From the IMG/VR virus record IMGVR_UViG_3300017917_002303, positions 1 to 54,068 of that record: a stretch of DNA of 54,068 bases, one strand, 5' to 3'. Source of the stretch: a virus. Under the pieces are notes generated by a model that was not told where the DNA came from, ran no database searches, and worked only from the letters and a program-made list of their open reading frames with translations. Positions 5,921 through 47,189 of the stretch are shown piece by piece; positions within the stretch are counted from its first letter, which is position 1; every line of letters begins with the position of its first letter. The translations under genes and the position numbers were made by a program.

Positions 5921-6502
5921 ATGAAATTCTTTTTTTGTGGAGGTAGTAATATAGATCTACGCATAAAAATTCATAATTTAATTCCTGAACAAAAATATCC
6001 TCATATTGTATCACAACACTTTAATGCGACACACATTAATGAAGGAACTTCTTCTGGTAGTAATAAAAGATCAATTAGAAAAATTTTTTACGAATATGAT
6101 ATGAATGAATTTGATTTCATCTGTATAGAATTTACTCCATATCCAAGAACAGAATTTTATGATGATCAAGAAAAAAAATGGATAAAATTTGCTTACTCAT
6201 ATCACCCCAATAAAACAAGTGACAAGAATAAAAAGTTAATGACGACATATTATAGTGAAATATATAATGCAGATCACGGAAATTTGCAATATGAAATTGA
6301 ATTCACAACAATTAAAAAATATTTAACAGCAATAAAAAAACCATTTGCATTAATTAATACAGATTTGCAATACAGAGGGTTTCAAAAACATGATTTTAAT
6401 GTTGCAGAATACGATACAAATAATTTACATTTAACAGATATTGGACATAAAATGATCGCAAAAAATATAATCAAACATTATGAAAATTTTTTACAACGGT
6501 GA
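5921..6502 (+). CDS. SGNH/GDSL-like protein 1 of 5, 193 aa
   Basis: The family folds like SGNH hydrolases (esterases and acyl hydrolases). Block I is KFFFCGGSNI with the nucleophile-position Ser at residue 9. Near the C-terminus is HLTDIGHKMIAKNI, standing where the Asp/His pair of the family lies. This copy is the most diverged: the HPN of the other members is HLT, and the Asn block differs. It overlaps the next paralogue by 23 bp, so the two are co-translated. Family assignment rests on comparison within the cluster; enzymatic activity is uncertain. The gene is very AT-rich relative to the genes left of 5.7 kb. Confidence 0.6.
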   Translation: MKFFFCGGSNIDLRIKIHNLIPEQKYPHIVSQHFNATHINEGTSSGSNKRSIRKIFYEYDMNEFDFICIEFTPYPRTEFYDDQEKKWIKFAYSYHPNKTSDKNKKLMTTYYSEIYNADHGNLQYEIEFTTIKKYLTAIKKPFALINTDLQYRGFQKHDFNVAEYDTNNLHLTDIGHKMIAKNIIKHYENFLQR

Positions 6503-7052
6503 TAGTTGGACATGGGGATATAATTTAGAAAACCGTGAGTTGCGTTATCCATCTCTTATCGATCAGCATTATGATGCTAAAAGTGTTGATCTTAGTATTC
6601 ATGGCTGTTCTAATAGAACCATTCTTAGAACAACATTAGAACAGGATATAGAAAAATTTAATCTTGGAATTATTAATTTAACTTACAAAAATAGAACAGA
6701 ATATTATAATTGGGAAACGTGTAACTGGGAGTTTTTCAATATGGGACGACATAAAAGATTTCAAAACAAATCAATTGTCTCTAAAAAAATGCAAGAATAT
6801 TATGAATATGTTTACACTGATATTTACGGGGAGACTGATGAATGGATCGCATACACAGCAATAAAAAATTATTTTACCCTGCATCAAGTTCCATTAATTC
6901 TCACAACTAGCCAAAAAACTTCCACCCTAAATTATGATCTAATCCTAAATACTCAAGATATTTCTAGATGTAATATAAGCATACATCCAAATGAAATTGG
7001 ACATAGAAGGATTTATGAAAAGATTATTACACTGGTTCAGGATAAAATATAA
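6480..7052 (+). CDS. SGNH/GDSL-like protein 2 of 5, 190 aa
   Basis: MKIFYNGDSWTWGYNLENRE carries the canonical GDS motif with Ser9. A second conserved segment, LSIHGCSNRTILRTTLEQ, matches the GxSNDxI block of the other paralogues. The C-terminal HPNEIGHRRIYEKII supplies the His of the catalytic dyad near residue 175. With GDS and HPNxxGH both intact this is one of the better candidates for an active member. It begins within the previous gene and its last 38 bp overlap a 27-codon peptide gene in another frame. A role in adding or removing acyl groups on a glycan is possible but not shown. Confidence 0.75.
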   Translation: MKIFYNGDSWTWGYNLENRELRYPSLIDQHYDAKSVDLSIHGCSNRTILRTTLEQDIEKFNLGIINLTYKNRTEYYNWETCNWEFFNMGRHKRFQNKSIVSKKMQEYYEYVYTDIYGETDEWIAYTAIKNYFTLHQVPLILTTSQKTSTLNYDLILNTQDISRCNISIHPNEIGHRRIYEKIITLVQDKI

Positions 7053-7098
7053 ATTATGGAAATTACGTAGAGAAGATCCTTATATTTACGAAGACTAA
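7015..7098 (+). CDS. Tiny basic peptide, YKLWKLRR family copy 1, 27 aa
   Basis: ATG 7015 lies inside the end of the preceding gene in another frame and encodes 27 residues that end YKLWKLRREDPYIYED. The stop abuts the next ATG (7099). The C-terminal 16 residues are nearly identical to the product of 12058-12156, which is in a different genomic context; DNA between the two copies differs mostly at third positions. Conservation of the peptide over 5 kb is strong evidence of coding. It is basic with a Trp/Leu face and an acidic Tyr-rich tail. Function unknown. Confidence 0.75.
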   Translation: MKRLLHWFRIKYKLWKLRREDPYIYED

Positions 7099-7866
7099 AT
7101 GCATTATAATTTACTATTCAATGGATGCAGTTTTACTTATGGAATTGAACTTCAAGGAATTGATAATAATTTAGATAAACAAACAAAGAATAGATTTTCT
7201 CATTTAGTTTCAGAGAAATTAAACTTAACGTATCAAAATATATCCAATCAAGGAGTAAGTAACGATTGGATTGTAGAAAGCACAATCAAATGGTTTGAAG
7301 AAGGTAATACTTGTGATATAGCAGTTATACAATTAACGGCAAAAGCAAGAACTGTTTGGTATAAGAACAATAAGGCATTTAATTTTGCTCCAGGGTTAAT
7401 AGTAGATAAAAAATATTTAAAATTTCCAATACTTGATTATTTCTTAGAACATGGTGCATTAGATCCTCTTAGATTATACTATAAAAAAGTATATTCTGAT
7501 TATATGGGGGATCAGAATTTTTATAAAAACTTATTTTTATTGGAAAATTTTTTTAAAAATAAAAAAATAAAAACAATATTTTTATCTTTGTGTAAAATTC
7601 CAAAACCAAACGATGGTTGGAAATCTTTATGCAAAACAAAAAAGATACAGCATATTATTAATACTGGAATGGAAGGACATCCTATAGATGAAGATCCACT
7701 TGATTATGGGTTAATTGGTAACAGATATACTAACCCAGAAAATTTCTGTCCAGAATTATATCAAAGCACAAAAAATTATGATTTAATTGGAACACGCCCG
7801 AATGAACTAGGACACCAAAAGATTGCGGACTATGTTATTGAGCAAATTAATATCCATAATCAATAG
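7099..7866 (+). CDS. SGNH/GDSL-like protein 3 of 5, 255 aa
   Basis: This is the longest of the five paralogues. Block I reads LLFNGCSFTYGIEL (Ser11, with GCS in place of GDS). The QGVSNDWIVESTIKWFEEG block follows at about residue 55, then a central region with the hydrophobic strand IAVIQLT. The terminal motif is RPNELGHQKIADYVI, where Arg replaces the first His of HPN but the final His is kept. The extra 50-60 residues compared with its relatives lie in the middle and late part. Its 3' end overlaps the end of the minus-strand sulfotransferase by 20 bp. Confidence 0.75.
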   Translation: MHYNLLFNGCSFTYGIELQGIDNNLDKQTKNRFSHLVSEKLNLTYQNISNQGVSNDWIVESTIKWFEEGNTCDIAVIQLTAKARTVWYKNNKAFNFAPGLIVDKKYLKFPILDYFLEHGALDPLRLYYKKVYSDYMGDQNFYKNLFLLENFFKNKKIKTIFLSLCKIPKPNDGWKSLCKTKKIQHIINTGMEGHPIDEDPLDYGLIGNRYTNPENFCPELYQSTKNYDLIGTRPNELGHQKIADYVIEQINIHNQ

Positions 7867-8905
7867 GTGTTCCCCAATCTGCTGGCAGGCATCCATGAAA
7901 TTTTTCAAAATCATCATAAATTGGACTGAAAAATTTCCTCATATAATTATAAAGATCTTCTGTTAAGATCTCCCAGTCAGATGTGTGCTGATCTTCTAGG
8001 AAGTCTAACTTTGGTGCGTTAATTCCTTTATCTGGGACAAATACGCATGGATGGATATGCTCAAGTTTATATGAAATAAACTGTTCTAATTTTGATATTT
8101 CATCTTTTTTCTTATTAAAAAAGTCTTCCATAATAAGATAGCAAACATTGTCACTTCCAAAAATAGAATTTAAATCGCCAATTACGTTTGCATAATTTGT
8201 ACTTATGCTACTTAAGTAATTTTTATTAAACATTATATTTTCAATCAAGTAATTTGTTACTGATTTATTTGATGCAAGTTCAATAAAATTTTCAGGTCTA
8301 TGATATCGCTCTGGAGAACCAACCTCAATTGTGTTACTAATAAGATGTTTTCTATAATATGAAGAGTTTTCAATAGAAAAACATCGTCTTACTGGATCTC
8401 TAAGCATTAGCAAAACTTTTACATCAAAATGTTCAGATAGAACTTGCTTTACATTTGTAAGAAATTTTTCTTCTATGACTAATTGATTACAATTTGAAAA
8501 GTCAGCAACAGCAGTGTAATCGTTTCCAATGTATTCTGACAATTTTAAATAGTATTCAACATAGTTTTCAATAGATGGAACTTTAAAAAGTTTTTCTACT
8601 TCATCTTTAGAAAACTTATATCCAATTTTAAAATAATCATAATGAAAATGATCTGGATTTAAGTTGAGTGTTCGAGACTTAATACTTTCATAATGTTCAA
8701 GAAAGAAATCAACATCTTTCAATGCCATCAAAGGAACATCAGTTTTATAAACAAAAGTAGGATCAAAAATCCTACGCAAATATCCGCATTCTTTATGAAT
8801 TCCTGTATGTAAATATTTTTGACTTCTAGTTAATGTATAATATAGCGATGTTGTACCACACCAAGACGCTCCAAAAAATAAAATAAATTGTCGTTTCATA
8901 CTCAT
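7847..8905 (-). CDS. PAPS-dependent sulfotransferase-like protein, about 352 aa
   Basis: Sulfotransferases of this kind move sulfate from PAPS to hydroxyls on sugars or other acceptors. The 5'-phosphosulfate loop is clear near the N-terminus: FFGASWCGTTSLYYTL, residues 10-25. The 3'-phosphate site appears as LMLRDPVRRCFS near residue 170. ATG 8905 is preferred over the TTG at 8920. It is the only minus-strand gene in the 5.9-15.6 kb island and lies divergent from the next SGNH-like gene with a gap of about 34 bp that must hold two promoters. The substrate is unknown; a host or phage polysaccharide is a reasonable guess. Confidence 0.85.
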   Translation of the reverse strand: MSMKRQFILFFGASWCGTTSLYYTLTRSQKYLHTGIHKECGYLRRIFDPTFVYKTDVPLMALKDVDFFLEHYESIKSRTLNLNPDHFHYDYFKIGYKFSKDEVEKLFKVPSIENYVEYYLKLSEYIGNDYTAVADFSNCNQLVIEEKFLTNVKQVLSEHFDVKVLLMLRDPVRRCFSIENSSYYRKHLISNTIEVGSPERYHRPENFIELASNKSVTNYLIENIMFNKNYLSSISTNYANVIGDLNSIFGSDNVCYLIMEDFFNKKKDEISKLEQFISYKLEHIHPCVFVPDKGINAPKLDFLEDQHTSDWEILTEDLYNYMRKFFSPIYDDFEKFHGCLPADWGTPIDYGY

Positions 8906-8939
8906 TAATAAATATTTCAAAATCTATTAGTATCTATAT

Positions 8940-9554
8940 ATGATTATTTTCTATAATGGATGTTCCTGTACTTGGGGAGATGAATTGCAAAATAGAGAGC
9001 AAGAAAGATATAGCACATTAGTTTCTAATCATTATAATACACCACACGTTAATATTTCTGAATGTGGTATTAGTAATGACGCAATTGCTCGTACTACAAT
9101 GGAGTGGTTTGCTAATGGCAATACTTGCGATTTGGCAATTATTCAATGGACCGTTATATCTCGTATTGATGGATATGATCGTGCAAAAGAAAAATATATT
9201 TGTGTTACAACGCAAACACAAACTAAATGGGCAGAATATTATAGAAAATATTACCACGACCAACTTGGATTTGATGCGCTATTCAAAAATTATTATTTGC
9301 TAGAGCAATTTTTTATTCAAAAAAATATACCATATTTTTTCATTATTCATGATTGCTGGGACCAAATACTTCCAAGTGTTTGGAACAATTATATCAAGGA
9401 AAAAAATTATCACTATATGAGAGGAAATTCTAATTTTTTAAACATAATACTAGACAAAGAAATATACTTTGAAGGTACAAAAGGTCATCCAAATTCCTTA
9501 GGACATCAAGCTATTGCAAATTATATTATAGATAATATTGGAAACTTCCAATAA
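8940..9554 (+). CDS. SGNH/GDSL-like protein 4 of 5, 204 aa
   Basis: The N-terminus MIIFYNGCSCTWGDELQNRE aligns closely with protein 2 (GCS in place of GDS, Ser9). The middle block GISNDAIARTTMEWFANGNT is nearly shared with proteins 3 and 5, and the end GHPNSLGHQAIANYII has the HPNxxGH motif with the final His near residue 189. All residues expected for a Ser/His hydrolase of this fold are present. It lies back to back with the sulfotransferase and 7 bp before the HNH gene. The substrate cannot be inferred. Confidence 0.75.
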   Translation: MIIFYNGCSCTWGDELQNREQERYSTLVSNHYNTPHVNISECGISNDAIARTTMEWFANGNTCDLAIIQWTVISRIDGYDRAKEKYICVTTQTQTKWAEYYRKYYHDQLGFDALFKNYYLLEQFFIQKNIPYFFIIHDCWDQILPSVWNNYIKEKNYHYMRGNSNFLNIILDKEIYFEGTKGHPNSLGHQAIANYIIDNIGNFQ

Positions 9555-9561
9555 AAAATAA

Positions 9562-9951
9562 ATGCTACTCTCTTCTGCAGATGAGTATCTTTATCAATTG
9601 CAAGCGAGCAACAAAGCGGACGCAATTAGACTATGGAGAAAGGCAATCAAAGAAGCATGGAATAATTGTTGCGCATATTGTGGTGAAAATAAGGAACAAA
9701 TGACAATTGATCATGTCATTCCACAGTCCTTAGGCGGCACAGATGAATTAATGAATGTAGTTTGTTGCTGTGAAGAATGCAACCGTGACAAGTCACACAC
9801 TGAGGTTGAGATTTGGTATTTTCAGCAATATTTTTTTTCTCAAGATCGTTGGGATAAAATTGAAGAATGGAGAACGCCAAAAACAACAGGCACTAAAAAA
9901 AAATATGTAAGAGGTAAAAATGGAGTGCCTACTAGATCAATTTTACAATAA
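9562..9951 (+). CDS. HNH endonuclease, 129 aa
   Basis: A small HNH nuclease with the complete zinc-ribbon form: C37-x2-C40, the IDHVIP motif with D50-H51, GG at 58-59, N65, C70-x2-C73 and then N74 and K77. This arrangement (CxxC...DH...N...CxxC) is that of McrA/phage HNH enzymes which nick or cut DNA. The N-terminal 30 residues are helical and the C-terminus is basic (TGTKKKYVRGKNG). It sits between two SGNH-like paralogues and is not inside another gene, so it may be a free-standing homing endonuclease that brought part of the island in, or a DNA-packaging nuclease elsewhere in use. Confidence 0.88.
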   Translation: MLLSSADEYLYQLQASNKADAIRLWRKAIKEAWNNCCAYCGENKEQMTIDHVIPQSLGGTDELMNVVCCCEECNRDKSHTEVEIWYFQQYFFSQDRWDKIEEWRTPKTTGTKKKYVRGKNGVPTRSILQ

Positions 9952-9967
9952 AATAAAAATTTAAACT

Positions 9968-9975
9968 AATAAATA
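9968..9975 (+). promoter_or_regulatory. Late-type promoter motif AATAAATA
   Basis: AATAAATA lies 27 bp before the 10002 start, inside a short AT-rich spacer. It matches the T4-like late consensus at all but the first base. In DNA this AT-rich such words arise by chance, so confidence is modest. Confidence 0.35.
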
Positions 9976-10001
9976 TATAAAGTTATCTTGTTGTACAAAT
10001 T

Positions 10002-10643
10002 ATGCACGTCAATATTTTTTCTAATGGTGACATAGCTTTGCATTGTGGTGGATGTGATGCTGAAATCGAAGCAGAAAGTCATTATATCAATTTAATCGGA
10101 CAAAAACTTAATAAGACTTATAAGGATATTTCATATAATGCAGCATCGAATGATCGAATTGCAAGAACAACAATCGAGTGGTTTGAGAGCGGCAATACTG
10201 CAGACTTTGCGCTTATTCATTTTACTGAAGATTTTAGAATTGAGCACATTGCTGCTGAAAATAAATATCAAGATTGTACTCCCTATGGAGTAAAACATCA
10301 TCAATATCCTACAAATGTGTATAAAGATTATGATAATTATTATGAAAAAATATTTAATCCATTTATAGGTAGTGATAACTTTTACAAAAACCAATTTCTT
10401 TTGGAACTTTATTTTGAAAAGAAAAATATTCCATACTACTTTTTAAAGTTGATGGTATGCGATACCCCATCTCCATGGAAGAATTGGTGTAAAACTCAGG
10501 ATATTACTGCTACCGTTTACGCCAATAGTTTGCTTGATACACAACAAAATAAACCAGAGCACTATCATCACCATCATCCATCTGAATTAGGGCATCAGAT
10601 TATTGCAGACTATGTTATTAACAATATTAAAGATCGAATTTAA
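10002..10643 (+). CDS. SGNH/GDSL-like protein 5 of 5 with lost nucleophile, 213 aa
   Basis: The overall frame of the family is kept: the block YNAASNDRIARTTIEWFESG and the terminal HHHHPSELGHQIIADYVI are clear. Block I, however, reads NIFSNGDIALHCGG: the Ser that follows GD is Ile at residue 11, so the usual nucleophile is absent. Unless another Ser or Cys substitutes, this copy should be catalytically dead and may act as a binding or scaffold protein. A run of four His precedes PSELGH. The stop TAA lies 3 bp before the ATG of the first radical SAM gene, implying co-translation. Confidence 0.72.
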   Translation: MHVNIFSNGDIALHCGGCDAEIEAESHYINLIGQKLNKTYKDISYNAASNDRIARTTIEWFESGNTADFALIHFTEDFRIEHIAAENKYQDCTPYGVKHHQYPTNVYKDYDNYYEKIFNPFIGSDNFYKNQFLLELYFEKKNIPYYFLKLMVCDTPSPWKNWCKTQDITATVYANSLLDTQQNKPEHYHHHHPSELGHQIIADYVINNIKDRI

Positions 10644-10646
10644 TTG

Positions 10647-11870
10647 ATGGAAAACACTGAAGAAAATAAAGTTATTTGCCCATTACCATTTGTAAGAATT
10701 TACAATAATTTAGACGCTGCTGCTTATTCTCCATGTTGTTGGTCAAATCATTGGGAAGATGCTCAATATAATATTTACAATACTTTACCCTTAGAACATT
10801 TTACTGGCGAAGTTTTTAACCGAATCCGAAAAGAGATGTTGGAGGGGGAAAAAACAGAATTTTTAAAAGGATATTGCAATTCTTGCTGGAAAAAAGAAGA
10901 ACAATATCAAAATTCCCCTAGATTAGAATTTAAAAATTTTGCTCGTAAACATAATGTTTATGAAGATTTTTTTGATAAAGATGGAAAACTTTTAGATAAC
11001 AAGAAAAGATTTATTCAAATATGTATTAATGTTTATGGTAATCATTGCAATTTAGAATGTTATGAGTGTTTGCCGCCCAATTCTTCATCTAGACAATCTA
11101 GATTAAATAAATTAAATGACCCTAAAATAAGTGCTGCGTTTAATTATCGCCAATTTGATCATAAAGCGCTAATTCCTAAAGAACAGTTTAAAAGAATTGT
11201 TGATGAAATTATATTATATTCCTATAAAATTAAGGCTATTGAAATCGTTGGCGGAGAGCCAATGATAATGAATGATCATTTTTTCTTATTAGATAAGTTA
11301 ATTGAGTGTGGGGAATCAGAGAATATAGAACTAGTCTACGTGTCAAATATGACACTAATGAATTTATTGAAAATGAAAAAATATTTTGATAAATTTAGTT
11401 ACACTAGAATTCAATGGAGTATCGATGCATTAAAAGAAAGAAATCATTGGTTAAGATACCCAACTGATTGGGATAAAACACTAAAAAATGTTGTTGAGGT
11501 TAAAAAATATCTAACAAAAACAAATAAAGGTTCCTTAAAACCTACAATTACTCCAAGTTTATTCAGTATAACTACATTTAAAGAAACTTATGATTGGTTG
11601 GTATCTAGCGGATATATGCTTTCAGATCAACATCATTATAATATGATTGGAAATCCTAAATTTTTAAGTCCACAACATTTGCCACAAGAATTAAAAGAAA
11701 AAATTGCCCCTGAGGTTTTCAAAATATCAAAAGTTCATTATAATCAATTAATGTCTGATAGAGATGAAAATAGTTTTCAGTTGGCAGTAGAATATGCTGA
11801 TAAATTAGATAAGCAAAGAGGAACAAATTGGATAACTACATTTCCAGAAATTGCAGAATATGCAAAATAA
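10647..11870 (+). CDS. Radical SAM protein with extra cysteine motifs, copy 1
   Basis: The 407-residue protein has a radical SAM cluster motif NHCNLECYEC: C134-x3-C138-x2-C141. The N-terminal region has C11, the pair C30-C31 in SPCCW and a CxxC (CNSCW) near residue 73, which could hold a second iron-sulfur cluster, as in SPASM or twitch-type radical SAM enzymes. A GGEP motif (IVGGEPMIM) follows the strand after the cluster, as usual for the family. These enzymes activate C-H bonds, often on peptides. It is about as long as copy 2 (13579) and shares its C-terminal LDKQRGTNW-TTFPEIA-YA. The substrate is unknown. Confidence 0.87.
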   Translation: MENTEENKVICPLPFVRIYNNLDAAAYSPCCWSNHWEDAQYNIYNTLPLEHFTGEVFNRIRKEMLEGEKTEFLKGYCNSCWKKEEQYQNSPRLEFKNFARKHNVYEDFFDKDGKLLDNKKRFIQICINVYGNHCNLECYECLPPNSSSRQSRLNKLNDPKISAAFNYRQFDHKALIPKEQFKRIVDEIILYSYKIKAIEIVGGEPMIMNDHFFLLDKLIECGESENIELVYVSNMTLMNLLKMKKYFDKFSYTRIQWSIDALKERNHWLRYPTDWDKTLKNVVEVKKYLTKTNKGSLKPTITPSLFSITTFKETYDWLVSSGYMLSDQHHYNMIGNPKFLSPQHLPQELKEKIAPEVFKISKVHYNQLMSDRDENSFQLAVEYADKLDKQRGTNWITTFPEIAEYAK

Positions 11871-11873
11871 ATA
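11866..11873 (+). promoter_or_regulatory. Late-type promoter motif AATAAATA
   Basis: AATAAATA overlaps the stop codon of the first radical SAM gene and lies 30 bp before the small gene at 11903. Match to the late consensus is good except the first base; AT-rich context lowers its weight. Confidence 0.35.
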
Positions 11874-11902
11874 TAAAAAAAGAAACTTTTAGTTAATCTA
11901 TA

Positions 11903-12061
11903 ATGGCATACAATGTTTATATAGATCAAATGATTGCGTTTGAAAACCTTACAAAAGAAGATGCTGAACAACGTGCAAAAGAAATTCAGCAAATGATTTT
12001 TGCTGGTATCCCAACACAATATACAACTGAACAAATTAAAGTATTGGAGATTAAACAATGA
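11903..12061 (+). CDS. Small phage protein of unknown function, 52 aa
   Basis: ATG 11903 encodes 52 residues, MAYNVYIDQMIAFENLTKED and onward, with a strand-helix-strand look and Lys/Glu-rich helix. It overlaps the following tiny peptide gene by 4 bp (ATGA), and the pair lie between radical SAM copy 1 and the carbamoyltransferase. Small proteins beside radical SAM genes are sometimes their peptide substrates, but this one has no recognisable leader/core division and may simply be one of the short conserved phage proteins. No firm assignment. Confidence 0.65.
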   Translation: MAYNVYIDQMIAFENLTKEDAEQRAKEIQQMIFAGIPTQYTTEQIKVLEIKQ

Positions 12062-12156
12062 ACCCGATTGCAAGATTGATTAGATGGATTAGAGGAGAAT
12101 ATAAGTTGTGGAAACTTCGTAGACAAGATCCTTACATTTATGAAAATGAAGATTGA
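12058..12156 (+). CDS. Tiny basic peptide, YKLWKLRR family copy 2, 32 aa
   Basis: This 32-residue peptide ends EYKLWKLRRQDPYIYENED and is a paralogue of the 7015-7098 product; the shared part is LWKLRR-(E/Q)-DPYIYE preceded by YK. The N-terminal part (MNPIARLIRWIRG) is basic and amphipathic. It overlaps the preceding gene by 4 bp and ends 2 bp before ATG 12159 of the carbamoyltransferase. Its repeated occurrence argues for a genuine gene family. It might be a membrane-surface or nucleic-acid-binding peptide, or a substrate of the nearby enzymes; none is shown. Confidence 0.78.
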   Translation: MNPIARLIRWIRGEYKLWKLRRQDPYIYENED

Positions 12157-12158
12157 TC

Positions 12159-13541
12159 ATGATTGGTATAAGTGAAGGATTTCATGATGCTGCAATATCA
12201 GTAGTAAACGATGGTAAGATTAAGTTTGCTGCTCATGCAGAACGATATTCTAGAATAAAGCATGATAAACATTTAAATCTATCAGTATGTGCAGAAGCAT
12301 TATCGTATACTGAAGATGATATTGTATCTTTTTATGAGCGTCCTTGGATAAAGCGTACTCGTCAATTATTTGCAGGGCAGTATAAGAGTGCTTTTAAAAA
12401 TAGAAATATCTATCTAACTCCTTCACAATATTATCCACATCATCTTTCCCATGCTGCTGCAGCATTTCAGACATCACCCTATCAAGATGCTGCATGTGTT
12501 GTCGTAGACAGTATTGGAGAATGGGATACTGCATCTATCTGGAGGGCTCAGATGGTGGAAGGACGTGCAAAGTATAAGAAAGTATGGTGTCAAAGATATC
12601 CCAATTCTATAGGTCTTTGGTATTCATCTTATACAAAATGGGCAGGTTTGAAACCCTTAGATGAAGAATATATCTTTATGGGGATGGCAGCGTTCGGTAA
12701 GCCCTTATACGTCGAACAAGCTCGTAACCTGCTCTCTAGAAATAATCATAAAGGCTTTACAATCTCTCTTGAAGGAACACCAGAAGACAACTCTAAGAGT
12801 GCAGAAGTTGTCTTAGAGGAAAGACTGAAAGAAATTTTTAATAGAGCAAAGAAAATTTCGAGTAATATTTGTTATGGTGGAGGAGTTGCCTTAAACTGCG
12901 TAGTGAATACTAAGTTACAGGAGATGTGTAACCTGTGGATTATGCCTAATCCTGGAGATGCTGGAGCTTCTTTAGGAGCAGCTTTATTATCTTATGGTGG
13001 CAAAGTAATCTTTAATCCTTATTTGGGTTATGATATACAACGTTATATTGATCCTAAAGAGGTTGTTGACATATTACTACAAAAAGGGATCTGTGGGATT
13101 GCAAACGGACCTGCTGAGTTTGGACCACGGGCTTTGGGTAATAGAAGTCTTCTAGCAGATCCTAGGACGCTTGAAATGAAAAATAAAGTTAACGAGATAA
13201 AGAAGCGTCAAAAGTTTCGTCCTTTTGCTCCAGTCATTCTAGAAGAGCATTGTCAGAATTATTTTGATATGCCTTCAGAAAGTCGTTATATGTCTTACGT
13301 ATACAACTGTAAGCGTCCACAAGACATTCCTGCATGTATTCATGTAGATAATAGTGCTCGTGTCCAAACGGTTCCTATATGGTCTTCTAGCATCATCAGA
13401 GTAATTTTAGAGTGTTGGTATGAAAGAACTGGATGCCCAATTCTTCTTAATACATCACTTAATATTAGAGGTATGCCAATTGTTAATGATTGGAAAGATG
13501 CTAAAAAATTTTCTAAAAAATATTTAATTAATGTACTTTAA
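12159..13541 (+). CDS. NodU/CmcH-family O-carbamoyltransferase, about 460 aa
   Basis: Members transfer the carbamoyl group of carbamoyl phosphate, via carbamoyl-adenylate, onto a hydroxyl of a sugar, antibiotic or modified base. The N-terminal ASKHA-type domain starts IGISEGFHDAAISVV and has the metal-site HHLSH at residues 94-98 and a VVVDSIGEWDT strand. GGGVALN is near residue 240. The C-terminal adenylation domain has GPRALGNRS (322-330), KFRPFAPVILEE and LLNTSLNIRG. All family landmarks are present although it is shorter than usual (560-600 residues). ATG 12159 is preferred over TTG 12153. Viral relatives acting on 5-hydroxymethylcytosine are known, but glycan substrates are equally possible here. 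Confidence 0.9.
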   Translation: MIGISEGFHDAAISVVNDGKIKFAAHAERYSRIKHDKHLNLSVCAEALSYTEDDIVSFYERPWIKRTRQLFAGQYKSAFKNRNIYLTPSQYYPHHLSHAAAAFQTSPYQDAACVVVDSIGEWDTASIWRAQMVEGRAKYKKVWCQRYPNSIGLWYSSYTKWAGLKPLDEEYIFMGMAAFGKPLYVEQARNLLSRNNHKGFTISLEGTPEDNSKSAEVVLEERLKEIFNRAKKISSNICYGGGVALNCVVNTKLQEMCNLWIMPNPGDAGASLGAALLSYGGKVIFNPYLGYDIQRYIDPKEVVDILLQKGICGIANGPAEFGPRALGNRSLLADPRTLEMKNKVNEIKKRQKFRPFAPVILEEHCQNYFDMPSESRYMSYVYNCKRPQDIPACIHVDNSARVQTVPIWSSSIIRVILECWYERTGCPILLNTSLNIRGMPIVNDWKDAKKFSKKYLINVL

Positions 13542-13548
13542 ATAAATA
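13541..13548 (+). promoter_or_regulatory. Late-type promoter motif AATAAATA
   Basis: AATAAATA overlaps the carbamoyltransferase stop codon and is 31 bp before the second radical SAM start. Spacing resembles the stronger promoters before gp25 and the 27521 gene, but the first base deviates from consensus. Confidence 0.35.
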
Positions 13549-13578
13549 ATTTACAATTTTAATCGTATATTTTTTATT

Positions 13579-14775
13579 ATGAATAATCCAGTTATTTGTA
13601 TACAGCCATTCAATAACATTTATAATGCTCCAGGAAAATCATATTCTCCTTGTTGTTGGGGTGGTTTATTTAATTATTCTCCAGATGAAGTTTTACCATT
13701 ATCGCATTTTACTAGCGATGAAATGAATAGAATTAGAAAAGAAATGCTTAATGGAGAAAAAACGGAGTTTTTAGAAAAATTTTGCAGCAAATGTTGGCAA
13801 AAAGAAAAGGAATATGGACATTCACCTAGATTAGATGAGGTTGTATCAAAATCATTTACAGATAATTTTAATGAAGATGGAGTTTTAGGGAAGTGTAATC
13901 AAAGATTTTTAAAAATTTCTCTTAATATTTTTGGAAATCAATGCAATTTACAGTGCTATGAGTGTTTACCTAATAACTCTTCATCAAGAATTTCTGTAAT
14001 GAAAAAATTGGACCCACAATGGTCAGATCCTAAAAATTTTCCACATTTTAATGATAAAGAATATGATTTAAAAAAAACAAGGCAAGAACAGTTCAACGAT
14101 GTTGTTAATAATCTTGTTGACAATGCCGATAAAATCAGAACTATTTCCGTAGTTGGTGGAGAGCCTATGTTAATGAAATCTCATTTCCATCTTCTTGATA
14201 GATTAATTGAATGTGGTCATTCTAAAGAAATTTCATTAAATTACTGCTCTAATATGACTGTAACAAAATTATCAAATATGAAAAAATATTTTGATAATTT
14301 TAAGTCTACATTTCTTCAATGGAGTGTTGATTCAATAGGAGAAAGAAATACTTGGTTAAGATATCCAACCAATTGGGAAGAAACCTTGTTAAATGTATTT
14401 GAAATAAAGACATATTTACGAAGCAATTTACTAGGAATTATAGAATCAACTATTACACCAACAATTCTCAGTATTACATCATTCAAAGATACATACAACT
14501 GGCTATTAGAAAATGAATTAATTTCTATTAAAAATAAGCATGTTAATGTGGTATCTAGACCAGAATTTTTGCGTCCACATCATTTACCACAAAAGCTTAA
14601 AGAAGAAATTTCAGAGGATATATTAAAAATTTCAAAATACAGATATAACCAACTCATGGAAACTGGCGATGAGCAAATGTTTAAAAAAGCAATAGAATAT
14701 TGTGATGCATTAGATAAGCAAAGAGGAACAAATTGGAGAACTACATTTCCAGAAATTGCAAAGTATGCGGATTGA
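13579..14775 (+). CDS. Radical SAM protein with extra cysteine motifs, copy 2
   Basis: A 398-residue paralogue of the 10647 product with the same order of motifs: SPCCW near residue 28, a CSKCW pair near residue 70, the radical SAM triad in NQCNLQCYEC (C122, C126, C129), VVGGEPMLM, a central IQWS-like strand (here LQWSVDSIGERNTWLRYPT in part) and the shared C-terminal DKQRGTNW-TTFPEIAKYA. Divergence is spread across the whole protein, so the duplication is not recent, apart from the 3' end where DNA is almost identical. Having two suggests either two substrates or a functional heterodimer. Confidence 0.87.
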   Translation: MNNPVICIQPFNNIYNAPGKSYSPCCWGGLFNYSPDEVLPLSHFTSDEMNRIRKEMLNGEKTEFLEKFCSKCWQKEKEYGHSPRLDEVVSKSFTDNFNEDGVLGKCNQRFLKISLNIFGNQCNLQCYECLPNNSSSRISVMKKLDPQWSDPKNFPHFNDKEYDLKKTRQEQFNDVVNNLVDNADKIRTISVVGGEPMLMKSHFHLLDRLIECGHSKEISLNYCSNMTVTKLSNMKKYFDNFKSTFLQWSVDSIGERNTWLRYPTNWEETLLNVFEIKTYLRSNLLGIIESTITPTILSITSFKDTYNWLLENELISIKNKHVNVVSRPEFLRPHHLPQKLKEEISEDILKISKYRYNQLMETGDEQMFKKAIEYCDALDKQRGTNWRTTFPEIAKYAD

Positions 14776-14781
14776 CGTATT

Positions 14782-14820
14782 CTAAATAACGTGGTATCAT
14801 AAATTTGGGTGATACCCGTT
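14782..14820 (+). promoter_or_regulatory. Late-type promoter motif followed by a leader hairpin
   Basis: CTAAATA at 14782-14788 matches the cyanophage variant of the late promoter. Five bases on, GGTATCA (14793-14799) pairs with TGATACC (14810-14816), and AACG/CGTT extend the stem with one bulged T. No U tract follows, so this is a stable 5'-leader hairpin rather than a terminator, on the transcript for the 14850 gene. Confidence 0.45.
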
Positions 14821-14849
14821 TACGTAAACAAAACAATTGAAGTATATTC

Positions 14850-15611
14850 ATGGCAAAAGGTTTTAAAGTGGTTACAAAACCACCAGTATCATCGTCAAAT
14901 AGTTCAGACGATTTCAATTTAGAAGAAGCAAAAAAAATTATTAAAGACAAAAGCATTGTTTTTTGTCTTCCTGGTAGGGGAGTTTCATATACGTATCTCA
15001 AAAATTTTGTACAACTTTGTTTTGATCTTGTACAAAATGGAGCAAGCATTCAAATTTCGCAAGACTATTCTTCAATGGTCAATTTTGCCCGTTGTAAGTG
15101 TCTTGGTGCTAATGTTCTTCGTGGACCAGATCAACTTCCTTGGGATGGAAAACTAAAATATGATTATCAACTATGGATTGATAGTGATATTGTTTTCAAT
15201 ACGGAATCTTTCTATCGCTTAGTATGGATGGATAAAGATATCTCTTGTGGTTGGTATGCAACTGAAGATGGTGTAACAACATCAGTTGCACATTGGCTTG
15301 AAGAGGATGATTTTAAAAATAATGGTGGTGTTATGAACCATGAAATGGTTGATGGCATTCAAAAGCGTCGCAAACCATTTACTGTTGATTATACTGGATT
15401 TGGTTGGACTCTTATTAAGTACGGAGTGTTTGAGCATCCTGAAATGAAATACCCCTGGTTTGCTCCGCAAATGCAAGTGTTTGAATCTGGGGAAGTTCAA
15501 GATATGTGTGGTGAAGACGTTTCATTCTGTTTAGATGCAATTAAGGCAGGATTTGAAATCTGGTGTGATCCTGTATGTAGAGTTGGTCACGAGAAGACAC
15601 GAATTATCTAA
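14850..15611 (+). CDS. GT-A-type glycosyltransferase-like protein, 253 aa
   Basis: The body starts after a 30-residue Ser/Pro/Lys-rich tail with FCLPGRGVSYTYLKNFVQL, a strand-loop-helix like the nucleotide-sugar site of GT-A enzymes. LWIDSDIVF holds a DxD motif (D111, D113) for the metal-diphosphate, and later come GWYATEDG, a TGFGWTLIKYGVFE segment and GEDVSFCLDAIKAGFEIWCDP, the usual acceptor-side Asp/Glu block ending at VGHEKTR. I infer transfer of a sugar from a nucleotide donor, target unknown. It follows the radical SAM/carbamoyltransferase block but has its own promoter-like leader, and proteins of this type commonly sit near the late genes of cyanophages. Confidence 0.8.
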   Translation: MAKGFKVVTKPPVSSSNSSDDFNLEEAKKIIKDKSIVFCLPGRGVSYTYLKNFVQLCFDLVQNGASIQISQDYSSMVNFARCKCLGANVLRGPDQLPWDGKLKYDYQLWIDSDIVFNTESFYRLVWMDKDISCGWYATEDGVTTSVAHWLEEDDFKNNGGVMNHEMVDGIQKRRKPFTVDYTGFGWTLIKYGVFEHPEMKYPWFAPQMQVFESGEVQDMCGEDVSFCLDAIKAGFEIWCDPVCRVGHEKTRII

Positions 15612-16183: not shown

Positions 16184-16807
16184 ATGGCATATCTAAATCA
16201 CAATCTTCCTACATTTACTTGCTATATTCGTAATGAATTTCTTTTCAATCACACAAAAGGATTTGGAGAAGTAACTTTATGTGATGTACATTCAGTTGCA
16301 TCATTAGAAAAACATGTTCCTCTTTTTGAAGCATTTTTAGAAAATGGTGTAAATTGGACAAGAAGACCAATACATGCTTTTTGTTGGAAATCCGACGCAC
16401 CAATTCAAAAACTTGAAGAGTGTATGTGGTGGGATTGTTTTTCTCCTTATGTTGATGTTCAAGTTCGTTCTAGACTTGCAAATTTACGTGCTGATCTCAT
16501 TAATTACCGTGGTGAAAAAAATCAAGGTGTTTATATGTTTACCTTGGATTGGTCGTGGGAATCCAAATCTTGCTTAAATACTAACTTTAGCGAAACACCA
16601 GAGCATAAATGTGCTCATTTTTTTAAAATGGATAATGGAAATTATTATGCATACCCAAATAATAAAATTATTTGGTGTGATGATGCTTGGATAAAAAATA
16701 GAATAGATAAAAATCCAGGATATATAATTGATTTAACAGAATATTCAGTTGAAAACTTAAGAAAAATTGAAACTTCAGATGATTTTATGTATGAAGTGAA
16801 AATTTGA
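16184..16807 (+). CDS. Phage protein of unknown function, 207 aa
   Basis: The 207-residue protein begins MAYLNHNLPTFTCYIRNEFL and is rich in Trp, Tyr, Phe and Cys (CMWWDCFSPYVDVQVRSRLA in the middle, FTLDWSWESKSC later). The mix of strands suggests a compact mixed fold, and it resembles conserved hypothetical proteins found near the baseplate genes of T4-like marine phages. Its ATG follows the terminator directly, leaving little room for a leader, so how it is transcribed is unclear. No catalytic motif is recognised. Confidence 0.7.
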   Translation: MAYLNHNLPTFTCYIRNEFLFNHTKGFGEVTLCDVHSVASLEKHVPLFEAFLENGVNWTRRPIHAFCWKSDAPIQKLEECMWWDCFSPYVDVQVRSRLANLRADLINYRGEKNQGVYMFTLDWSWESKSCLNTNFSETPEHKCAHFFKMDNGNYYAYPNNKIIWCDDAWIKNRIDKNPGYIIDLTEYSVENLRKIETSDDFMYEVKI

Positions 16808-44539: not shown

Positions 44540-44725
44540 ATGAACCCAGAAATTGAAGCATTACTATCGGTTTATCAAAAACGTTTAAGTGATGTAACTG
44601 CGCAAGCAATCGCATATGAAGCAAGAATACAAATTTTATCTCAACAGATACAAAATCTTCAAATACAATTACAAGAAGAAAATCCCAAAAAATTAAATAA
44701 AGAATCTGATAGTGGTGAATTTTAA
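44540..44725 (+). CDS. Small coiled-coil protein, 61 aa
   Basis: The 61-residue product is one long amphipathic helix (LLSVYQKRLSDVTAQAIAYE, then IQILSQQIQNLQIQLQEE) with a polar tail NKESDSGEF. It resembles the coiled-coil product at 39206 in size and position after a fibre gene. Its ATG follows a terminator T tract with no space for a ribosome-binding site; if translated, leaderless or hairpin-adjacent initiation is needed. It overlaps the methyltransferase start by one base. Confidence 0.65.
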   Translation: MNPEIEALLSVYQKRLSDVTAQAIAYEARIQILSQQIQNLQIQLQEENPKKLNKESDSGEF

Positions 44726-45243
44726 TGGAAGAGTATTTTAGTGGAATTTGGAAAGATGAAAATTTTGCAAATTTAAAATACTCTGGATATCAGTTAGTTG
44801 ATTATGTAAATTCTAAAAACCCCAAAACAGTTTTAGATGTTGGATGTGGTTTTAATCGATTTAAAGGGAAAATTAATAATCTTTATGGTATTGATCCATT
44901 TAATAGTGCTTCGGATCAAAAAATTTCATTAGAAGAGTATGAAGGATCTAAAGTTGACATTGCATTATGTTTAGGATCTATTAATTTTGGTGATGAAGAA
45001 AATATAAATAAACAAATTAAAATTCTTGACAATATTTGGATTAAAGAATGTATTTTTAGAGTTAATCCTGGATTAGAACATACTTGGAGAAATAGAAAAG
45101 AATATAAAAATGTTATTTGGTATCCCTGGACAGTTGATAAAATTTATCAAATACAAAAAAAATACAATTATACATTAAAATGTTTAGAACAAGAATATAA
45201 TGTTCATGGTCATTTAAGATACTTTTTCATTTTTACTAAATAA
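44725..45243 (+). CDS. SAM-dependent methyltransferase-like protein, 172 aa
   Basis: The SAM-binding motif I is clear: TVLDVGCGFNRF with D38-V-G-C-G42, followed by LYGIDPFN as motif II (acidic D after the second strand) and the strand VDIALCLGSINFG as motif IV region. After that come ILDNIWIKECIFRVNPG and a C-terminal mixed domain. It is class I Rossmann-type but short for a complete DNA or small-molecule methylase. The acceptor cannot be inferred. It overlaps the coiled-coil gene (TAATG) and ends 38 bp before the di-iron gene. Confidence 0.8.
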   Translation: MEEYFSGIWKDENFANLKYSGYQLVDYVNSKNPKTVLDVGCGFNRFKGKINNLYGIDPFNSASDQKISLEEYEGSKVDIALCLGSINFGDEENINKQIKILDNIWIKECIFRVNPGLEHTWRNRKEYKNVIWYPWTVDKIYQIQKKYNYTLKCLEQEYNVHGHLRYFFIFTK

Positions 45244-45281
45244 CACTGTAAACGTTAATAATCTATATCAAGGGGTTTACA

Positions 45282-45947
45282 ATGTTATCAGGTAAAGAAT
45301 TTGTGGCAAAAATCAAGGAAGATAATGCTTCCCTTTTTGCAGAATCACGTAAAAACGTTCGTAACTTCTTTGCTTCAAATCCAAGTAAAGAATTTATGAT
45401 TGAGCACTTCACTGGACGTATGGTCAACGAAGCAATGAACATGAAAGCAATCTCTGCTGAGGTTGCTGCTTCTTCTGCTTCAATGGACGTAACCGAACTT
45501 GAACTTCTAACCAAGCAAGCACAGGATGAGGCTAAGCACTTCCGTATGGTTAAAGAAGTTCTTGAGCACATCACTGGCGAGCAGGTTGATGTTGAGTCTG
45601 CTTTTGCTGCTGAAGCTGCTGCTCCACAGGCAAAGGGTGCTTCTCTTCTAGAAAAGTATGGTGCCTCTCAAGATCCCGCTGCTCTTGCTGCATACCAACT
45701 TGTTGCTGAAGGTCGTGCAGAAGCAGTATGGGCAGAAATGGCTGAATGTGTAGAAGATCAATTTATCTCTTCACGCTACGCTGCTATCGCTAAGGATGAA
45801 GGTTTCCACGCTAACATCGGTGGTTGGAAGCTAGAGAAGCTTGTAGAAGGCGGTGCTGAACTACAAGAGCGTATCCTCAGTATGGTTGCTCAAATGCGTA
45901 CAGATCTTCTAGAGATCTCCCGTCAGAACACCGCTATCGCTGTTTGA
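45282..45947 (+). CDS. Ferritin-like di-iron protein, 221 aa
   Basis: The helical protein has the full ligand pattern of ferritin-like di-iron enzymes: a first-helix Glu (E41, E50 or E60), E83-x2-H86 in QDEAKHF, a third-helix Glu in EAVWAEMAECVED (residues 147-158) and E173-x2-H176 in KDEGFHANIG. Rubrerythrins, bacterial oxygenases and alternative oxidases share this layout; the exact reaction is not given by sequence. A strong AAGGGG site precedes ATG 45282. GC and codon use (GCT, CTT, CGT, AAG) are unlike its neighbours and suggest high expression. It converges on the minus-strand gene with a 14-bp tail overlap. Confidence 0.72.
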   Translation: MLSGKEFVAKIKEDNASLFAESRKNVRNFFASNPSKEFMIEHFTGRMVNEAMNMKAISAEVAASSASMDVTELELLTKQAQDEAKHFRMVKEVLEHITGEQVDVESAFAAEAAAPQAKGASLLEKYGASQDPAALAAYQLVAEGRAEAVWAEMAECVEDQFISSRYAAIAKDEGFHANIGGWKLEKLVEGGAELQERILSMVAQMRTDLLEISRQNTAIAV

Positions 45948-46563
45948 ATGGTTTACGACCATCTCTGATGGTTTTATCTAACCAATATTCATCAACGTAG
46001 TTAACATACTTGTGGTTGGCATCTTTATCAATAAAGGTATTGATGCCTTCTACTGTTACGGGAAAATTTAATATTCTTCCAATATATTTGATATAATTTT
46101 CTTTATGAAGAAAAAATGCTTCATGATCTAAAAAGTGGTATTCAATATCTGAGTTTATAATTTCATTATAGTAAGAAAGAGCGGTCGGTAGCGTAACTTC
46201 GCCACCGACCCTTTTTTGTTGTAATGAATTAATATTTTGATCTCGTACAATGATTGCAATTGTAGGTTCAACTCCAAGTTCTTTTGCCCTTTCGCAAACT
46301 TTAATAATTTTAGGTATTTGTCTTATACCATCGTAAAAAAACGGCACACTTACATTTGTAAGAAAAAATTCTCCCTCAGCAAATTCAAGTTCTTCTGGAT
46401 AAACCCAATACCTTGCAAAAGGTTCTTCATCGCTAGGAACCCAATACTTATTTTTAAGATCTTCCCATCCAACAACACTAGGATGAAGACTTAGAAGTCT
46501 TGCAAATAAATGATTACCCGATCCTTGTGGACCTGTACATATTAAAAGTTTTTTTAAATGCAT
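45934..46563 (-). CDS. P-loop sulfotransferase-like protein A, 209 aa
   Basis: The N-terminus LLICTGPQGSGNHLFARLLS carries a P-loop of the sulfotransferase/kinase type at residues 11-18 (GPQGSGNH). IAIIVRDQNINSLQQKR in the middle is placed like the 3'-phosphate site (RDxxxxxxS/Q) of sulfotransferases. At 209 residues it is shorter than the 7847 enzyme. The ATG overlaps the stop of its paralogue by 10 bp and its end overlaps the di-iron gene. Substrate unknown; it could also be a small nucleotide-binding kinase. Confidence 0.72.
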   Translation of the reverse strand: MHLKKLLICTGPQGSGNHLFARLLSLHPSVVGWEDLKNKYWVPSDEEPFARYWVYPEELEFAEGEFFLTNVSVPFFYDGIRQIPKIIKVCERAKELGVEPTIAIIVRDQNINSLQQKRVGGEVTLPTALSYYNEIINSDIEYHFLDHEAFFLHKENYIKYIGRILNFPVTVEGINTFIDKDANHKYVNYVDEYWLDKTIRDGRKPFKQR

Positions 46564-47189
46564 GGTTTTAATTTACTTGGTGTTGCTGTTTTATTGCATA
46601 TATCTAATGGATTATAATCTACATATTTGATATATTTTTCATTCGCATCTTGTTCTAAAATAGTGTTCACTCGATCATCATACCAAGCAATGGGAATTCC
46701 AATATCAAGAGATTTTAGATATTCTTGTTTATACAAATATAATAATTCATAACTCAAATATGTTGGATTTTTCATTTTTGGAAGTTGATCCAAAAAATGT
46801 CTTACTGTACTTTCTTCACGAAGTCTAGACTGTTGATTTCTAAGAATATTTTGATCCCTTCCAATAACAAGAACTTTTGTTTGAATACCAAGTTCTTCTA
46901 CCGCTTGTGTAAATGCTGGAACATTTGGACACCACTTAGTTCCTTGACTTGCAATACCTAGAGGAACACTAATACTTGTAAAGAAATAATCAGATTGATC
47001 CCAGTCAAACTCTTTTAATAGTTCTGTATTTTTCCAACACTGTGCAAATGGTTCTGTAACTCTATGTGCTTCCCAATAATTTTCAAGCAAACTTTTCCAC
47101 CCAAAAACATCTTCATGGAGGGAAAATATTTTTGACCATAAGTGATTTCCAGATCCTTGTGGTCCAGTAAGTATTGCAATTGTCTTCAC
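46554..47189 (-). CDS. P-loop sulfotransferase-like protein B, 211 aa
   Basis: A paralogue of the 45934 product: TGPQGSGNHLWSKIFSLHE at residues 8-26, a VFGWKSLLENYW segment equal to VVGWEDLKNKYW in A, and LVIGRDQNILRNQQSR at the putative PAPS 3'-phosphate site. C-terminal DANEKYIKYVDYNPLD matches DANHKYVNYVDEYWLD of A. The start is GTG 47187-47189. An extended -10 promoter lies just upstream at 47213-47221. The duplication is old, with identity limited to motifs. These two are opposite in direction to the late genes around them. Confidence 0.72.
   Translation of the reverse strand: MKTIAILTGPQGSGNHLWSKIFSLHEDVFGWKSLLENYWEAHRVTEPFAQCWKNTELLKEFDWDQSDYFFTSISVPLGIASQGTKWCPNVPAFTQAVEELGIQTKVLVIGRDQNILRNQQSRLREESTVRHFLDQLPKMKNPTYLSYELLYLYKQEYLKSLDIGIPIAWYDDRVNTILEQDANEKYIKYVDYNPLDICNKTATPSKLKPCI

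Follow-up and report, generated by a model that had tools for sequence, protein, structure and literature searches.

What does a run of genes for sulfotransferase, carbamoyltransferase, radical S-adenosylmethionine (SAM) and SGNH-family proteins do in a marine cyanophage, and do these genes work together? The question is raised by a 54,068-nt virus record assigned to a T4-like cyanophage (IMG/VR record IMGVR_UViG_3300017917_002303, positions 1–54,068; this whole stretch is called the window hereafter), in which such genes form an island just upstream of gp25 and gp6, whose products match baseplate wedge PHROGs. The island occupies the same site throughout a lineage of uncultured, oceanic T4-like cyanophages, and its distribution strongly supports the view that its genes form one decoration module. 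We tentatively propose, with a probability of roughly 0.45, that this module decorates surface glycans and acts on an envelope glycan of the host. The island extends from SGNH1 (5921) to rSAM2 (14775) and contains the following genes, where PAPS stands for 3′-phosphoadenosine 5′-phosphosulfate and ORF for open reading frame:

5921–6502, + strand: SGNH1, SGNH-family protein with a GGSN motif, block I not clean; missing in the nearest relative (locus L012)
6480–7052, + strand: SGNH2, GDSW...HPNEIGH, Ser and His present; Lipase_GDSL_2 match at E = 5e-4
7015–7098, + strand: second copy of the island micropeptide, MKRLLHWFRIKYKLWKLRREDPYIYED; ends at the start of SGNH3
7099–7866, + strand: SGNH3, Ser present, Arg at the position of the catalytic His
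7847–8920, − strand: PAPS-type sulfotransferase (STase), convergent with SGNH3
8940–9554, + strand: SGNH4, Ser9 and His183 intact
9562–9951, + strand: free-standing HNH endonuclease, adjoining SGNH4
10002–10643, + strand: SGNH5, Ile at the position of the nucleophilic Ser; the L012 protein is identical
10644–11870, + strand: rSAM1, N-terminal twitch radical SAM protein (NF033640); ATG at 10647
11903–12061, + strand: small ORF of 52 aa, conserved in L012–L014; overlaps the micropeptide start (ATGA)
12058–12156, + strand: island micropeptide of 32 aa, MNPIARLIRWIRGEYKLWKLRRQDPYIYENED; stop 2 nt before the ATG of CTase
12159–13541, + strand: NodU/CmcH-type carbamoyltransferase (CTase), both Pfam domains; in-frame TTG at 12153
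13579–14775, + strand: rSAM2, twitch radical SAM paralogue of rSAM1, inserted between CTase and the flanking gene; absent in L012–L014

At the left edge of the island the G+C content drops from about 0.40 to 0.28–0.29, and all ORFs proved to be open at the positions that an earlier note, made from the sequence alone, had assigned to them. The gene cluster itself is real: the SGNH fold, the PAPS sulfotransferase, the two twitch radical SAM proteins and the NodU/CmcH carbamoyltransferase are each backed by profiles or structure. These entries of the earlier parts list stand, while the HNH endonuclease and two conserved small ORFs had been omitted from it.

Loci of the same kind were first collected by a scan with CTase, which gave 80 loci, a set thus selected by this gene and containing many near-copies that are not independent samples. 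The gene following the island was present in 79 of these loci, gp25 in 78, SGNH genes in 69, STase genes in 63, radical SAM (rSAM) genes in 23, and the HNH gene in 20. Where at least 5 kb of upstream sequence was available (n = 30), SGNH genes were found in 30/30 and STase genes in 26/30 loci. As this set was biased by choice, the count was repeated from the flanking gene as a neutral anchor:

14850–15611, + strand: flanking conserved cyanophage gene (PHROG_1574, labelled unknown function), outside the island
14772–14800, + strand: sigma-70-like promoter ahead of the flanking gene (TTGACG-17-TATCAT); cyanophages that bear the island and those that lack it have equivalents of the TTGACA/TATAAT type

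Among the 52 anchor loci with 2 kb of upstream sequence, CTase occurred in 20, each time together with SGNH, STase or rSAM genes, and the upstream region of the other 32 contained none of the four; as an exception among the 32, the flanking gene of one locus (L099) is inverted, with CTase and rSAM lying on its opposite side. In the pooled sets, 82 loci had CTase plus one or more of the three other families and 35 had none, and on the tree of the anchor gene the presence of the island takes two changes. STase queries returned only loci of the island kind. When 50,697 phage records were searched, the SGNH, STase and CTase proteins had close relatives only in the single-cell virus AG-345-D19, while rSAM additionally had relatives of 24% identity in two Vibrio phages. 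The plasmid search with STase and with rSAM2 gave no matches, and a pattern scan of genome contigs detected only two distant rSAM relatives (24–26%), one of them at a locus that has phage-like virion genes and FkbM, sulfotransferase and rSAM genes as neighbours; the SGNH profile A1 and the rSAM profile A5 were too poorly conserved for collection scans. This all-or-none co-occurrence at a fixed site argues for one decoration module rather than a chance grouping. The earlier note had called for such a search in other cyanophages and had named genes scattered singly, with no co-occurrence, as the outcome that would speak against it; the pattern observed is the opposite.

The same note had counted the flanking gene as a GT-A-like enzyme of the island, an assignment that we do not retain. 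The gene is 77–87% identical across phages, whether or not they carry the island, and in S-SSM7, S-SRM01 and DSL-LC03 it is located a few small genes upstream of gp25. Since it is conserved in island-free cyanophages and has its own sigma-70-like promoter, we regard it as flank. It had no match in Pfam, its match to a PHROG glycosyltransferase was weak (1e-4), and its structure model (pLDDT 62) was too poor for use; from such weak matches, the product is at most a putative glycosyltransferase. Its nearest annotated records belong to Synechococcus and Prochlorococcus phages of Kyanoviridae. Psb-type evidence points the same way, as psbA-type genes are present in three contigs bearing the same island (two each in G002 and G007, one in G005), which supports the earlier assignment to a cyanophage and suggests Prochlorococcus or Synechococcus as hosts. 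No tRNA was found in the window. Between the flanking gene and gp25 (16184–16807) lies a gene whose protein matches PHROG_3704, labelled ferredoxin, although this label looks doubtful.

The family labels of the island proteins held up. The SGNH proteins of the window fall below the Pfam cut-offs, and the assignment was secured by structure prediction and fold comparison: the AlphaFold2 model of SGNH4 (pLDDT 92.8) shows an SGNH fold, matching TesA with Z-scores of 15.2–15.3 and a root-mean-square deviation of 2.8–3.0 over 161–164 residues. GDSL hydrolases also matched at Z of about 15, and carbohydrate esterases were among the structural matches. In a family of 79 diverse SGNH members, Ser9 is present in 76, the His in 77, and both in 75. 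Given the Ser-to-Ile and His-to-Arg replacements, SGNH5 and SGNH3 may not be active hydrolases. The STase alone missed the cut-off of Pfam Sulfotransfer_1 (12.4 bits, E = 0.1, cut-off 22), and its label rests on the family profile, which matches sulfotransferase 3rnl (E = 3e-9) and HS3ST enzymes, and on both PAPS-type motifs (GASWCGTTS and LRDPVRRCFS); in the family RDP..R..S is near-invariant and the N-terminal loop is conserved. CTase is complete, passes the cut-offs of PF16861 (1.5e-49) and PF02543 (3.6e-32), contains the motifs HHLSHA, GGGVALN and EFGPRALGNRS, and has TobZ, GdmN and the novobiocin carbamoyltransferase among its PDB matches. The twin radical SAM proteins, 53% identical to each other, exceed the cut-off of the NCBIfam model NF033640 (255.7 and 262.2 bits for rSAM1 and rSAM2, cut-off 170); they belong to that family, within which the window pair represents a phage subfamily. 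The three Cys of CxxxCxxC are invariant in 18 rSAM members.

How could such a set act? The island proteins have almost no hydrophobic segments and no signal peptides, and the catalytic Ser of the SGNH proteins lies near residue 9; the enzymes should therefore be cytoplasmic, and they would act there late in infection. STase would add sulfate from PAPS, and CTase carbamoyl groups, to sugar hydroxyls, the SGNH proteins would remove or transfer acyl groups (copies lacking catalytic residues perhaps only binding), and the rSAM enzymes may oxidise or epimerise the sugar or a partner. In none of the islands examined was a glycosyltransferase recognised. This speaks for decorating a glycan that the host makes rather than for synthesising a new one, and the backbone would most likely be the lipopolysaccharide (LPS) or another envelope glycan of the host. 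Additional genes in sister islands encode a UDP-glucose dehydrogenase, an NAD epimerase, a methyltransferase and an HpcH aldolase, and in relatives a phosphomannomutase gene lies inside a second SGNH/STase array; these sugar enzymes make a glycan substrate plausible. Of the earlier suggestion that the genes build or edit a glycan or a modified peptide, the module and the plausibility of a glycan remain, and the glycosyltransferase part falls away. The resulting decoration pattern would alter the receptors that rival phages or the progeny released from the cell depend on, and different combinations of SGNH and STase cassettes would match different host glycans.

Several observations weigh against this proposal. 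SGNH proteins usually carry the DxxH aspartate, and to our knowledge an invariant Arg is not typical of the superfamily. In the island family the block V Asp, three residues before the His, was not among the seven commonest residues of its column in profile A3 and was absent from all five window proteins, while R75 is invariant across the 79 members; judged from these alignments, the chemistry may differ. The rSAM genes occur in merely 23 of the 80 CTase loci. Expression signals give a mixed picture. The late-type motif TAAATA, itself AT-rich, was counted upstream of genes at distinct loci and compared with shuffles. Upstream of gp25, the positive control, it was found in 56/61 cases (6.9 expected), upstream of SGNH genes in 28/124 (8.8 expected), and upstream of rSAM genes in 8/15 (1.4 expected); no such signal was present upstream of STase or CTase. 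The excess upstream of SGNH and rSAM suggests that part of the island is expressed late, and late expression suits modification of the virion better than superinfection exclusion. Finally, the same genomes carry SGNH and STase genes beside nrdB, gp32-like, neck and tail-fibre genes (the gene names at these sites are our own sequence reading), and proximity to neck and tail-fibre genes fits virion decoration equally well.

Decoration of the virion, in which the module would modify tail-fibre or baseplate-protein glycans and the flanking gene product would serve as initiating glycosyltransferase, is a possible alternative, somewhat less probable than action on the host envelope. The site at the baseplate cluster and the TAAATA motifs upstream of SGNH and rSAM agree with it, as do a single SGNH gene near neck and terminase genes and, in G007, a second STase/P-loop site between fibre and neck genes, equivalent to 44725–47189 of the window. 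Against it, no glycosyltransferase was recognised in the island, and the candidate for this role, the flanking gene, is kept in island-free phages under a sigma-70-like promoter. Moreover, SGNH arrays also adjoin nrdB and gp32-like genes, and the hyperplastic gaps of T4-like phages house genes unrelated to virions (PMC2984593).

The variability of the locus bears on another explanation, namely that it is a selfish insertion hot spot, driven by the HNH endonuclease, which gathers host-derived genes with little joint function. The following segment is inverted between the window and its nearest relative:

7847–12052: block flipped as a unit in L012 (5674–9881), 89.9% identity, with breakpoints at gene ends

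This inverted 4.2-kb block separates two phages whose gp25–gp6 flank is nearly identical. Compared with the window, L012 also lacks rSAM2 and SGNH1/2 and has two extra STase genes, and L013 and L014 have no SGNH5–rSAM1 cassette. Synonymous divergence (dS) from L012 was 0.01–0.02 on the gp6–gp25 side, 0.04–0.06 for rSAM1, SGNH5 and the HNH gene, 0.34 for CTase, 0.64–0.84 for SGNH4 and STase, and 1.6 for SGNH3; such uneven values among neighbouring genes indicate a gene-by-gene mosaic. The location of the HNH gene beside SGNH4, the insertion, loss and inversion of blocks and this mosaic divergence are what a cassette trap would produce. The shared genes are all under purifying selection (ratio of nonsynonymous to synonymous divergence, dN/dS, <0.45), the island is present all-or-none clade-wide with a consistent enzyme theme, and the HNH gene occurs in only 20/80 loci, so that this explanation appears quite improbable. 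The neutral-stuffer reading was rejected, as its signs of decay (frameshifts, dN/dS near 1) were not seen.

The array did not arise by tandem duplication either. The nearest relative of a protein lay within its own locus in only 1/187 SGNH and 3/122 STase cases, and was almost always in another phage; the median identity within a locus was 31% for SGNH and 34% for STase proteins. By sequence, the island copies are old paralogues from a shared pool, which comprises 205 SGNH proteins in 81 clusters and 136 STase proteins in 48 clusters at 60% identity; the flanking gene is far less diverse (83 proteins, 16 clusters at 90%). Flanking inverted repeats that could switch the inverted block were sought in the window, and only AT-rich, chance-like repeats were present. 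In L012 an 81-nt pair of inverted arms derives from two STase paralogues, and homologous recombination between STase paralogues is a possible route of the inversion.

The island contains a further component that was not in the earlier finding, a micropeptide of typically about 30 residues (MKRLWNWIKGEYKLWKLRRQDPYIYEDDD). A profile search detected 76 copies in 75 loci, 47 of them at most 150 nt upstream of CTase. IYE or VYE is present in all 76 copies and R..DP[YF][IV]YE in 73; the peptide has an amphipathic Trp/Arg helix, DPYIYE and an acidic tail. When whole records were searched with the profile, the 10 island-bearing contigs each gave exactly one micropeptide, and seven records without the island (four named phages and three other records) gave none. 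A tblastn search of phages with two variants gave no match, and because such short queries are insensitive, absence was checked by the profile, which also detected a diverged copy in AG-345-D19. The micropeptide is therefore specific to island-bearing phages. It may tether or scaffold the island enzymes at the membrane. That it is instead their substrate or carrier, LWKLRRQDPYIYEDD and its variants becoming a tyrosine-sulfated or radical-SAM/carbamoyl-modified membrane peptide that is produced in infected cells and whose pattern is set by the SGNH/STase cassettes, is very unlikely in our estimate. Its position before CTase, its restriction to island-bearing records and the invariant Tyr in an acidic context resembling tyrosine-sulfation sites would suit modification by rSAM, STase and/or CTase. 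Nevertheless, conservation extends over the entire peptide, which sets it apart from most leader/core precursors, and it is kept in loci without rSAM, which is sporadic, or without STase within the stretch seen (e.g., L018–L021).

Least credible of all is DNA hypermodification, one of the targets named in the earlier note, or a viperin-like anti-defence function; both were rejected. In their favour, the rSAM core bears a weak resemblance to viperin (PADLOC, 27–28 bits; a PDB viperin match). Against them, the proteins reach 32.0 and 20.6 bits with the viperin NCBIfam model (cut-off 180) as opposed to >255 with NF033640, the late motif points elsewhere, and the search of island genes revealed no recognisable enzyme of nucleotide modification.

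Surface-glycan clusters are already known in cyanophages. LPS clusters, and carbamoyltransferases among sporadic host-like genes, were described in P-SSM2, S-SM2 and S-SSM7 (Sullivan et al., 2010, PMC3037559), and it has been suggested that the LPS clusters alter the surface of the host (PMC2984593, PMC3037559). The island resembles these in its cyanomyovirus background, glycan-related genes, carbamoyltransferase and the proposed change of the host surface. However, the clusters of Sullivan et al. lie near hli03 or near phoH and tRNAs, whereas the island, in the loci inspected, lies upstream of gp25 and has multi-copy SGNH and STase genes, twitch rSAM genes, a micropeptide and no recognised glycosyltransferase; its CTase is merely about 30% identical to Nol-like carbamoyltransferases. 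The hyperplastic region g15–g18 of cyanomyoviruses (Millard et al., 2009), as far as it is summarised in PMC2984593, likewise holds variable insertions inside a structural module, but differs in its position and its metabolic genes, the island having glycan-type enzymes and one lineage-wide set of families. The closest counterpart is the AG-345-D19 contig MH319727, an unannotated 8-kb piece of a single-cell amplified genome with consecutive genes for STase, two SGNH proteins, the micropeptide, a CTase of 67% identity and rSAM; its name was not mentioned in the literature searched. No paper found there joins cyanophage, carbamoyltransferase and sulfotransferase, and the only one with phage, sulfotransferase, carbamoyltransferase and radical SAM was unrelated. 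The earlier statement that no phage system with this combination had been described thus holds for that literature and, apart from AG-345-D19, for the 50,697 phage records. What is new is the position, the gene content, the multi-paralogue architecture and the micropeptide.

In this lineage of uncultured cyanophages, one site acts like a cassette exchange for surface-chemistry enzymes, which provides four enzyme families and a peptide that can be put to the test. If the proposed decoration is confirmed, these phages would change how surfaces are sulfated and carbamoylated on a population scale, either those of abundant ocean phototrophs or, should the virion be the target, those of their own particles, and the long-standing question of what surface-glycan genes do in cyanophages would open to assay.

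Related genes were also seen at other sites. SGNH arrays lie downstream of nrdA/nrdB-like genes in L181 (5224–9948), which also has STase and phosphomannomutase genes, and in L179 (4924–6374). The second variable site of the window (44725–47189), between fibre-like and neck-like genes, contains a methyltransferase-like ORF, a gene for a ferritin-like/MiaE-like protein (45282–45947) and two tandem minus-strand genes for P-loop proteins (GPQGSGNHLW); its equivalent in G007 (L188) has three STase genes and one for a DctP-type solute-binding protein. In a gammaproteobacterial contig of a metagenome-assembled genome (MAG; L092), phage-like virion genes stand beside three rSAM genes and sulfotransferase-like and FkbM methyltransferase genes, possibly a comparable island in another marine phage group. 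In a bacterial MAG (L093, 8650–18432), seven consecutive twitch radical SAM genes are located between respiratory-chain and ATP-synthase genes.

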